Source: an uncultured Bacteroidota bacterium
GTDB lineage: Bacteria > Bacteroidota > Bacteroidia > Bacteroidales > GWA2-32-17
Direction of reading: 5' to 3'
Length of the DNA: 36,537 nt
Assembly (NCBI GenBank): GCA_903872185.1
Contig: CAIQJL010000004.1
Span: 1 to 36,537 of the forward strand
A program made the translations under genes and the position numbers. Below the pieces are notes generated by a model that saw only the letters and a list, made by a program, of their open reading frames with translations, made no database searches and was not told the DNA's origin. Positions 500-34,700 of the stretch are shown here, one piece after another; positions within the stretch are counted from its first letter, which is position 1, and the number at the start of each line of letters is the position of its first letter.

Positions 500-690
500 T
501 AGTGATTATATTATCTGTGTGTCACAGATGTCTTTGTGGTCTGTGTGGTACATATCAAGGGAATGGGAGGCAAAATTTGTGGTCTGTGGGTCAGAGACTA
601 CGGAGGCAAGTTATGTTTTAAATGTGGTCTGTGAGCCACAGACCATGGAGATTAGTTACAAGCTTACGCTTGCGCCAAATTGTATTTTGA
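500..690. repeat. Cluster of short palindromic repeats (GTCTGTG family)
   Basis: Several short inverted repeats are packed between the peptidase stop and the arsR promoter. ATCTGTG (513-519) pairs with CACAGAT (523-529) around TGT. TGGTCTGTG (625-633) pairs perfectly with CACAGACCA (637-645) around AGC. An imperfect copy lies at about 582-598 and a half copy at about 537-547. CAAGC (659-663) pairs with GCTTG (668-672). The same unit recurs at 7816-7838. A 71-codon frame runs through the stretch but looks like chance. They may be terminator-like or REP-like elements; the function is unknown. Confidence 0.7.
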
Positions 691-728
691 ATATTTAAAA
701 TTATGTCGTATGTTTGCGACATAATTTT
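687..728 (+). promoter_or_regulatory. Promoter of the mercury cassette with overlapping palindromic operator
   Basis: TTG at 687-689, 19 nt, then TATGTTTG at 709-716 matches the Bacteroidota promoter pattern (TTG, about 19-20 nt, TAnnTTTG). A perfect 12-bp inverted repeat, AAAATTATGTCG (697-708) and CGACATAATTTT (717-728), flanks the -7 box so that its 8-nt loop is exactly TATGTTTG. A repressor dimer on these arms would cover the promoter. The arsR ATG follows at 735, so the leader would be only about a dozen bases. Binding by the encoded ArsR protein is inferred from position. Confidence 0.75.
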
Positions 729-2107: not shown

Positions 2108-3130
2108 ATGCATTTTGTTACAAGTTACATAAATCTTGAAACTAAAATTCCAGTAGTTTCAACAAAACTTGAAACAAGAGATTATTTTGGTGCAATAAAA
2201 GCCAGATGGTCAATAAACAGAAGCAATTACAAAATAACTCCTGGTTTATACGCAATAGGAAATCCTAACAAAAATTCTGAGGTTTTTGTAACATCAAATT
2301 ATAAGCTAAGCTTTGATCATTTAAGAAAAAATCTGGTTGGATTAAATGCCTGGATACTGGTTTTAAACACTAATGGCATTAATGTATGGTGTGCTGCAGG
2401 TAAAGGAACATTTGGTACAACTGAACTTGTTTCAAAAATAAATGAATTCTCGTTAAATACTATCGTAGATCACAAAAGAATAATTGTTCCCCAGCTTGGC
2501 GCAGTTGGCATTTCAGCGCATGAAGTAAAAAAGGAAACTGGTTTTAACATAAAATACGGACCAGTAAATGCATCTGATATAAAAGACTTTTTAAACAAGA
2601 ATTATAGATCTGATATTAAAATCAGAACAGTTAATTTCAGATTTAAAGACAGGCTTATTCTAACTCCAGTTGAAATTGTTGCTCATTTTAAATATTTGAC
2701 ATTACTTTTCTCTGCCTTTTTTATTTTAAGTTGTTTAAGTAGAGATGGATTTTCTGTTGATAAAGGTTGGGATTATCTTCATATTATTATATTAAATCTT
2801 GGTGGATCGTATATCTGCGGAACAGTGCTTACACCAATATTTTTACCATATATTCCATTCAGAAACTTTTCATTTAAAGGATTAATTATTGGTTTTATTT
2901 TTTCTTCAATAATTACATTTTTTAACATTAATGGCAACAATATACCTGAATTAATTTCGTGGCTATTCATAAATCTTGCTATTGCTTCTTTTACGGCAAT
3001 GAATTTTACCGGTGCATCAACATATACCTCGCTTTCGGGAGTAAAAAAAGAAATGAGAATTGCATTACCAATTCAAATTGGACTATTTGTTATAGGATTA
3101 ATTACATGGATAATTCTTAGATTTATTTAA
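2108..3130 (+). CDS. hgcA: HgcA, corrinoid-dependent mercury methyltransferase
   Basis: HgcA transfers a methyl group from its corrinoid to Hg(II), making methylmercury. The protein is 340 residues, close to the 338 of the ND132 enzyme. The N-terminal half is the CFeSP-like corrinoid domain with the diagnostic cap-helix motif N-V-W-C-A-A-G-K at 92-99; Cys95 is the expected lower cobalt ligand. Other family segments are T-P-G-L-Y-A-I-G (44-51), V-T-S-N-Y-K-L-S-F-D (61-70) and V-P-Q-L-G-A-V-G (127-134). The C-terminal half has about five membrane spans (roughly 195-212, 224-248, 256-273, 280-297, 319-338) and the conserved M-N-F-T-G-A-S-T-Y-T-S-L-S-G-V segment at 298-312. It starts 2 bp after the CcdA-like gene and ends 4 bp before hgcB. 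No corrinoid synthesis or acetyl-CoA pathway genes are in the window, so methyl supply must come from elsewhere. Confidence 0.97.
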   Translation: MHFVTSYINLETKIPVVSTKLETRDYFGAIKARWSINRSNYKITPGLYAIGNPNKNSEVFVTSNYKLSFDHLRKNLVGLNAWILVLNTNGINVWCAAGKGTFGTTELVSKINEFSLNTIVDHKRIIVPQLGAVGISAHEVKKETGFNIKYGPVNASDIKDFLNKNYRSDIKIRTVNFRFKDRLILTPVEIVAHFKYLTLLFSAFFILSCLSRDGFSVDKGWDYLHIIILNLGGSYICGTVLTPIFLPYIPFRNFSFKGLIIGFIFSSIITFFNINGNNIPELISWLFINLAIASFTAMNFTGASTYTSLSGVKKEMRIALPIQIGLFVIGLITWIILRFI

Positions 3131-3134
3131 TAAC

Positions 3135-3428
3135 ATGACATTAACTTATTTAAAAAACGTTACTACACTTGAACTTGATACAGAAATATGTACTGGTTGC
3201 TCAATGTGTTTTATAGTTTGTCCACATAATGTGTTCGAAATAAAAAACAAAAAATCGATAATTATAAATAAAGACTTTTGCATGGAGTGTGGTGCCTGCC
3301 AAAAAAACTGTCCAGATAATGCCATTAAAGTTCAAACAGGGGTTGGTTGTGCTGCAGGTATAATTATTGGTTTTATAAATGGTACTGAACCTGATTGTAG
3401 TTGTGGGGAAGGTTCGACCTGTTGCTAA
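3135..3428 (+). CDS. hgcB: HgcB, 2[4Fe-4S] ferredoxin partner of HgcA
   Basis: HgcB is thought to reduce the HgcA corrinoid to Co(I) and to hand over Hg(II) through its thiols. The protein has 97 residues. Two ferredoxin motifs are complete: Cys19, 22, 25, 29 and Cys49, 52, 55, 59, each followed by proline. After the clusters come the conserved lone cysteine (Cys72, in G-V-G-C-A-A-G) and a tail with Cys88, Cys90 and the terminal pair Cys96-Cys97. A lone Cys plus C-terminal Cys-Cys is the HgcB signature that separates it from ordinary ferredoxins; the extra C-S-C just before the terminal pair gives four tail thiols. It is the last gene of the operon. No strong terminator hairpin is visible in the 120 bp after it. 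Confidence 0.96.
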   Translation: MTLTYLKNVTTLELDTEICTGCSMCFIVCPHNVFEIKNKKSIIINKDFCMECGACQKNCPDNAIKVQTGVGCAAGIIIGFINGTEPDCSCGEGSTCC

Positions 3429-4937: not shown

Positions 4938-4950
4938 ATTTAAAAAGCAT

Positions 4951-4984
4951 AAAAAAAGCACGAGTTTAAACTCGTGCTTTTTTT
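4951..4984. terminator. Bidirectional rho-independent terminator
   Basis: A perfect 20-bp palindrome, GCACGAGTTT (4958-4967) and AAACTCGTGC (4968-4977), flanked by A7 on the left and T7 on the right. It lies between convergent genes and should stop transcription from both sides. Confidence 0.92.
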
Positions 4985-4996
4985 ATTTATATATGT

Positions 4997-7815: not shown

Positions 7816-7838
7816 TTGGTCTGTGTGTCACAGATCAA
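7816..7838. repeat. Palindromic repeat between convergent genes (GTCTGTG family)
   Basis: TTGGTCTGTG (7816-7825), TGT, CACAGATCAA (7829-7838) forms a 10-bp stem with one wobble pair. It is the same unit as at 513-529 and 625-645. It is followed by a half copy (about 7847-7860). It lies between the CPBP gene stop and the lepA stop, a terminator-like position, but lacks a clean T run. Confidence 0.65.
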
Positions 7839-30954: not shown

Positions 30955-30987
30955 AAAAGCCGTCTCATTTTGAGACGGCTTTTTTTA
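30955..30987 (+). terminator. Rho-independent terminator after the giant gene
   Basis: AAAAGCCGTCTCA (30955-30967), loop TTT, TGAGACGGCTTTT (30971-30983), followed by more T. A 13-bp stem, 20 bp after the stop codon. Its core GCCGTCT is shared with the terminator at 34669. Confidence 0.93.
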
Positions 30988-34668: not shown

Positions 34669-34700
34669 AAAAAGCCGTCTTAATAAAGACGGCTTTTTTT
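34669..34700 (+). terminator. Rho-independent terminator after the 1197-residue gene
   Basis: AAAAAGCCGTCTT (34669-34681), loop AATA, AAGACGGCTTTTT (34686-34698), then T. A 13-bp stem, with the same GCCGTCT core as the terminator at 30955. Confidence 0.93.

Follow-up and report, generated by a model that had tools for sequence, protein, structure and literature searches.

The window, by which we mean the whole stretch of 36,537 nucleotides analysed, carries near its start a tight operon in which an ArsR-type repressor gene precedes a predicted mercury-methylation gene pair. The five genes arsR, cysTM, ccdA, hgcA and hgcB lie on one strand with intergenic gaps of 2-15 nt, and upstream of the first of them is a perfect inverted repeat built round a promoter element. 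The features of the locus are:

687-689, + strand: TTG, putative -33 element, read from the sequence and from TTG enrichment over 48 ArsR-linked sites
696-729, no strand assigned: putative ArsR operator, a perfect 13-bp inverted repeat with an 8-nt loop, from its recurrence in relatives and its own-genome sites
709-716, + strand: -7 box TATGTTTG, Bacteroidota consensus TAnnTTTG (PMC7366714, PMC9723704), conserved one way round before ArsR genes
721, + strand: predicted transcript start, placed by the -12 to -5 span of the -7 box in Flavobacterium (PMC9723704)
735-1073, + strand: ArsR/SmtB-family repressor, 112 aa, with C41, C80 and C82 (PF01022, 39.7 bits; NF033788, 66.9 bits)
1089-1406, + strand: cysTM, a Cys-rich single-pass membrane protein conserved beside hgcAB in several loci
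1410-2105, + strand: CcdA/DsbD-type membrane protein (PF02683, 37.7 bits)
2108-3130, + strand: predicted HgcA, corrinoid protein of mercury methylation (NF040863, 422.3 bits; cut-off 275)
3135-3428, + strand: predicted HgcB, ferredoxin of mercury methylation (NF040864, 121.7 bits; cut-off 99)

HgcA and HgcB are adjacent and each scores over its curated cut-off, which bears out the mercury methylation genes named in the first-pass annotation and makes its "mercury cassette" an operon for mercury methylation, as distinct from a mer operon conferring resistance. The ArsR protein exceeds the cut-offs of both of its families (22 bits for PF01022, 55 bits for NF033788) and thus has the winged helix of ArsR/SmtB repressors; its structure model has a pLDDT of 84.4, a fold search returned mostly general ArsR/SmtB matches of moderate TM, and the dyad operator over the repressor's own promoter that is typical of this family is found here in sequence and conservation. 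The cysTM protein (1089-1406) has no match in Pfam or NCBIfam. It is kept between arsR and the CcdA-like gene in many hgcAB operons, and could act as a carrier that hands metal(loid)s or thiols to HgcAB.

The arms of the inverted repeat (696-708 and 717-729) are complementary at 13/13 positions and flank TATGTTTG as the loop at 709-716; an 18-bp core, TGTCGTATGTTTGCGACA, conserved among relatives, corresponds to 704-721. The repeat had earlier been described as perfect, 12 bp long and enclosing a -7 element: it is perfect and does enclose the element between its arms, but we count 13 bp. The TTG said to lie 19 nt 5' of TATGTTTG is also there. In the published Bacteroides promoter consensus TAnnTTTG lies at -7 and TTTG near -33 (PMC7366714, PMC9723704), and here we find the elements of a Bacteroidota primary-sigma promoter, namely TAnnTTTG at -7 and, from sequence and enrichment, a T-rich stretch with TTG near -33. 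Since the -7 box of Flavobacterium spans -12 to -5 (PMC9723704), transcription would start at about 721, slightly 5' of the 722-726 first predicted, giving a leader of 14 nt; the ArsR ATG is at 735, with a gap of 5 nt after the repeat. The length of the repeat is by itself unusual but not astonishing, being borderline against dinucleotide-preserving shuffles of the window (2/60 contain a repeat with arms of at least 13 and a loop of 3-20), and further long inverted repeats start at 4949, 30955 and 34669. A chance repeat is nevertheless ruled out by recurrence before ArsR genes, so that position and recurrence, and not length, make it significant. As for the other three repeats (4949-4986, 30955-30983 and 34669-34698), they are perfect, lie at gene ends with A/T-rich flanks and are probably terminators.

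Recurrence of the operator before arsR genes

The host genome of the window comprises 4.3 Mb in 407 contigs, and TTATGTCG-N6..10-CGACATAA occurs in it at a single place. Genome-wide recurrence of the palindrome had been named in the first-pass annotation as grounds for rejecting a dedicated operator; the behaviour found is unlike that of GGTCTGTG-N3-CACAGACC, present at 21 places at up to one mismatch (0 for the reversed pattern). A search with the core pattern TGNCGTANNTTTRCGNCA gave two exact sites, 704-721 of the window (TGTCGTATGTTTGCGACA) and one on contig C205 (TGTCGTACGTTTACGACA), each an exact pattern match and each preceding an arsR gene, the first heading the hgcAB operon and the second an arsC/acr3 operon. 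A genome-wide repeat of the GTCTGTG type is ruled out by these counts of one place and two exact sites against 21 places. With two mismatches allowed, the motif is found 14 times per strand compared with 24 and 15 for controls, which is background, so further members of the regulon cannot be named from this search. The GGTCTGTG-N3-CACAGACC palindromes, seen in the window at 580-645 and 7818-7836, are intergenic, REP-like and have no relation to the operator. On contig C205 (locus L095, 2573-6430), genes for an arsenate reductase resembling ArsC and for the arsenite transporter ACR3 lie near the second ArsR and its exact operator. An FtsX-like permease, an ABC ATPase and a DUF1573-like protein, all three identified by likeness, are also encoded there.

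Across the order, the pattern TGWCGTATNTTTRCGWCA has 57 exact sites spread over 48 of 295 genomes, and its reversal in the same genomes gave 0 among the matches listed. Followed in the direction of the -7 box, 48 of the 57 sites have the start of an ArsR homolog no more than 300 bp downstream. Among the remaining nine, an ArsR lies 0.9-2.7 kb away on the downstream side in four, and the stretch examined contains none in the other five. The pattern was devised after viewing loci of the HgcA matches and of the 60 relatives examined first, and 40 of the 48 ArsR-linked sites come from genomes outside those 60, a few being HgcA genomes already viewed. Two loci (L172 on G659:C177 and L173 on G568:C190) have exact operator-like sites followed by more CGCATATTTGCGACA copies, with no ArsR near, and look like short direct repeats.

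A looser form of the core defines a wider class of sites. Of 50 ArsR homologs, 35 have CGTA-N4-TRC[GA] upstream, compared with 35 of 2617 control windows taken from these loci, and WTCGTAWNWTTGCGAW is present in 138 of 390 genomes of the phylum, where control matches were scattered; an ArsR gene lies within 300 bp at 18 of the 30 WTCGTAWNWTTGCGAW sites whose sequence was examined. The base pair flanking the TCGTA core seems tied to the type of ArsR, judged by eye and on small numbers: G/C goes with CISGD-type and EIKTGN-type, A/T with CICGD-type and T/A with C[CF]FGD-type proteins. The A/T form, ATCGTAATATTGCGAT, is the exact centre of the DNase I footprint printed for ArArsR (PMC11868830). 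These sequence comparisons place the operator in a class shared by ArsR genes throughout Bacteroidota; many such genes stand in arsenic operons. The rule that emerges, an ArsR dyad N-TCGTA-N4-TRCGA-N enclosing TAnnTTTG, could serve as a tool to find ArsR-controlled genes in Bacteroidota, and genes found by dyad and -7 box together would probably be arsenic-inducible.

The -7 box as the centre of the dyad

The pattern TGWCGTATNTTTRCGWCA itself fixes a TAnnTTT centre, so its sites were excluded as evidence for the -7 box, which was tested instead with ArsR-anchored loci matched on the arms only. Among 50 distinct ArsR homologs, from loci chosen by ArsR or HgcA, 27 have TGNCG-N8-CGNCA with at most one mismatch within 200 bp upstream, and 23 lack the operator arms. 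The centre of the copy nearest the gene reads TAnnTTTG in 16 and TAnnTTTA in 9 of the 27, that is, in the sense direction in 25, and the reverse-direction TAnnTTT[G/A] centre occurs at 0 of the 27 arm-matched sites before ArsR. In tandem copies further upstream, off the promoter, most centres break the box (TAATTATA, TAAAATTA, TATTATTA, TAATAATA), the cases of L161 and L153 being less clean. Moreover, the last box position is G in 35 of 48 sites, matching the promoter consensus, whereas the dyad alone would demand A, by symmetry with the mirrored half. The -33 element is weak: counted from the operator core, TTG peaks at offset -18 (19% of the 48 ArsR-linked sites) and offset -17 (12%), or about 15/48 (31%) for the two together. 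At nearly all other positions outside the core the figure is 0-6%, and the peak falls inside a T-rich patch; the TTG of the window is at -17. The outer variable bases of the dyad covary (Fisher p 0.006 over 48 sites, kinship of the sites ignored), as expected for two half-sites read by one dimer.

It is extremely improbable that the repeat acts instead as RNA, either as a hairpin that terminates the gene before it or as a switch in the 5' leader. The segment 691-735, if transcribed through, would fold at -17.6 kcal/mol (z -7.4), but the predicted start at 721 falls inside the right arm and leaves a leader (721-780) that is unstructured (z +0.98), and the repeat is absent from the output of a terminator scan; on these two results, leader and scan, we rule the hairpin out. 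At the same time, the outer pair in relatives is often non-complementary (T..T in 12/48, A..A in 3/48) while the TAnnTTT centre is kept, and ArsR genes in otherwise unrelated surroundings have this core in front of them, both of which speak against a conserved RNA stem.

Very probably, the repeat is where an arsenic-sensing ArsR repressor docks, and it sits exactly on the promoter. We consider it likely, with good confidence from comparative sequence evidence, that the ArsR of 735-1073 represses arsR-hgcAB through the dyad on the -7 box and is released by trivalent arsenic. The repeat would be the autoregulatory operator of ArsR, built round a -7 box belonging to the sole promoter seen for the arsR-cysTM-ccdA-hgcA-hgcB operon; with a dimer of ArsR on the dyad, both the -7 box and the start site would be covered and RNA polymerase kept off. 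C41, C80 and C82 would bind As(III), and probably also methylarsenite, upon which the dimer would leave the DNA and the operon, hgcAB included, would be transcribed. Binding, repression, inducer and start site are all inferred here from sequence comparison. The mechanism first proposed for this locus, in which ArsR blocks the promoter until a soft metal bound by its cysteines releases it, is supported, in that it agrees with all of the comparative tests applied here.

We hold it to be very unlikely that the second ArsR, that of contig C205, is the chief regulator of hgcAB, acting in trans, with only a minor part for the local one. The operators are near-identical (TGTCGTATGTTTGCGACA and TGTCGTACGTTTACGACA are both exact) and so are the helix-turn-helix stretches of the two proteins, which would make such control conceivable; on the other hand, ArsR-type regulators usually act on their own promoter, and the local ArsR is kept with its hgcAB in two congeneric species (87% and 76%).

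Sensor cysteines and the candidate inducer

The best point of comparison for the sensor is ArArsR of the Bacteroidota strain Arsenicibacter rosenii SM-1, the first gene of the ArarsRMC operon, for which mutagenesis showed that C41, C80 and C82 are required for As(III), the methylarsenite response needing just C41 and C82, and for which the DNase I footprint 5'-TTTTATCGTAATATTGCGATCACAATC-3' is printed (PMC11868830). The ArsR of the window has all three cysteines, matched to ArArsR by number and context and not by alignment, and both genes have the core TCGTA-N4-TGCGA upstream, as 704-721 of the window compares with the printed footprint. There are also differences. C43, C107 and C108, dispensable in mutants, are kept in the nearest relatives of ArArsR (PMC11868830), whereas our protein has S43 and no C43, and a terminal CC at 111-112 where those relatives have C107 and C108; the window ArsR is therefore likened to ArArsR in its working and not classed as a close relative. 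Furthermore, the flank outside the core is A/T in ArArsR but G/C in the window operator, ArArsR heads an arsenic operon whereas the window ArsR heads hgcAB, and the authors of PMC11868830 put their footprint over a "-35" element, whereas we read the centre of the dyad as the -7 box.

Among 57 operator-bearing ArsRs, C41 is present in 45, C82 in 56, a C-terminal cysteine in 56 and C80 in just 6, so the ligand set of ArArsR fails for most of the family (G491 is counted among the 14 hgcAB rows of this table, which leaves the totals of 57 unaffected). Most members may therefore employ a different residue as third ligand, the terminal cysteine being one candidate, or else sense methylarsenite. The second ArsR of the genome, on C205, lacks C41.

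In our analysis trivalent arsenic is the most likely inducer, since arsC/arsM/acr3 operons have this operator and this type of ArsR at their head and C41, C80 and C82 match those of ArArsR, and we saw nothing pointing to Hg(II) in the operator, cysteine and neighbourhood comparisons. Production of methylmercury at this locus would then probably be switched on by arsenic and not by mercury. An inducer other than arsenic (Hg(II), S-adenosylhomocysteine, or a thiol or redox signal), with operator and repressor standing as described, seems to us unlikely, although ArsR/SmtB proteins sense many ligands and the cassette encodes Cys-rich and CcdA-like proteins. The hgcAB regulator of Pseudodesulfovibrio mercurii ND132, moreover, reportedly answers both arsenic and S-adenosylhomocysteine. 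Such an inducer sits poorly with the arsC, arsM and acr3 genes headed by the same operator and ArsR clade, with the several hgcAB pairs that lie inside arsR-arsC-...-acr3 operons, and with the match of the three cysteines to ArArsR (PMC11868830); arsenic stays the preferred reading.

Linkage of hgcAB to arsenic operons

Loci that bear the operator without hgcAB carry ArsC, ArsM and ACR3 genes, these families having been verified on L079 and L095 and named by likeness at the other loci. An operator strictly dedicated to hgcAB is thus ruled out, as arsenic operons share it, including the one that the second copy in the same genome heads. Where hgcAB is present, it is often embedded in operons of this kind, as at four loci: arsR-arsC-hgcA-hgcB-acr3 (L065), arsR-x-hgcA-hgcB-acr3 (L098), arsR-arsC-...-hgcA-...-acr3 (L104, arsC and acr3 named by likeness only) and arsR-arsC-cysTM-ccdA-hgcA (L105, arsC named by likeness only). 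HgcA scored over its cut-off in 23 of the 393 genomes of the order sample, and 20 of these were assessable, the upstream sequence being too short in three. In nine of the 20, an ArsR with the G/C-type operator lies on the strand of hgcA and no more than 2.6 kb upstream of it (two of the nine, G742 and G598, show an outer mismatch in the operator); one has this pair 5.9 kb off, beyond an opposite-strand gene, three have an ArsR with the T/A-type operator 3.0-5.1 kb upstream, and one has a doubtful site. No ArsR was found upstream of hgcA in the remaining six of the 20 assessable genomes, so control of hgcAB by ArsR appears common but not universal.

hgcAB came under this operator type more than once. 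On the careful ArsR tree, hgcAB linkage takes 8 label changes, of which well-supported branches force at least 4, and grouping the hgcAB-linked proteins in one clade is rejected (p-AU 4e-8); a quick tree gave 7 changes, at least 2 of them forced. In the labelling, G006 was included and G491 was treated as not operon-linked, an opposite-strand gene lying between its ArsR operon and hgcAB. The protein has 112 residues and the tree many unsettled forks, so the number of recruitments is approximate and gains are indistinguishable from losses.

That hgcAB can stand under ArsR control and beside arsenic genes is known in principle. ArsR-type genes beside hgcAB, co-transcription and an arsenic response in ND132 are cited in passages of PMC7438021, PMC10349881 and PMC12953829, the arsenic response of its hgcAB regulator in PMC10349881. 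The likeness is that an arsenic-responsive ArsR-family gene lies upstream of hgcAB and controls it (PMC10349881, PMC12953829), but ND132 belongs to another phylum and its promoter is of another type than that of the window. Similarly, PMC7438021 describes hgcAB beside acr3, arsC and arsM, a physical association with arsenic genes that we also see; its passages on this carry no operator or promoter, whereas here a shared operator would make a regulon in Bacteroidota. Our literature search returned no account of the window operator, of an ArsR dyad that encloses a -7 box, or of an operator common to arsenic and hgcAB operons in Bacteroidota, which is not proof of absence; as far as this search goes, the operator, the position of the -7 box and the sharing between arsenic and hgcAB operons are what is new here.

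We speculate further, as a rather unlikely extension, that hgcAB of Bacteroidota could be a true member of the arsenic regulon, recruited on several occasions since HgcAB acts on arsenicals or the damage they cause, with methylmercury a by-product of the arsenic response and As(III) or methylarsenite setting its production. If true, a single operator type with the -7 box at its centre would drive both arsC/arsM/acr3 and hgcAB. Our main reading, independently of this extension, predicts that the hgcAB and arsC/acr3 operons of one genome are switched together. What triggers hgcAB and what purpose HgcAB serves bear directly on methylmercury in food webs, and for the Bacteroidota branch the present comparison offers an operator that is testable at the level of base pairs, together with a likely inducer. 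Finally, on one contig of the sample (L113, 3043-3798, the same as locus L074) hgcA is split into two frames between an operator-bearing arsR and an acr3-like gene, so that there the hgcAB pair seems to be in decay inside an arsenic operon.
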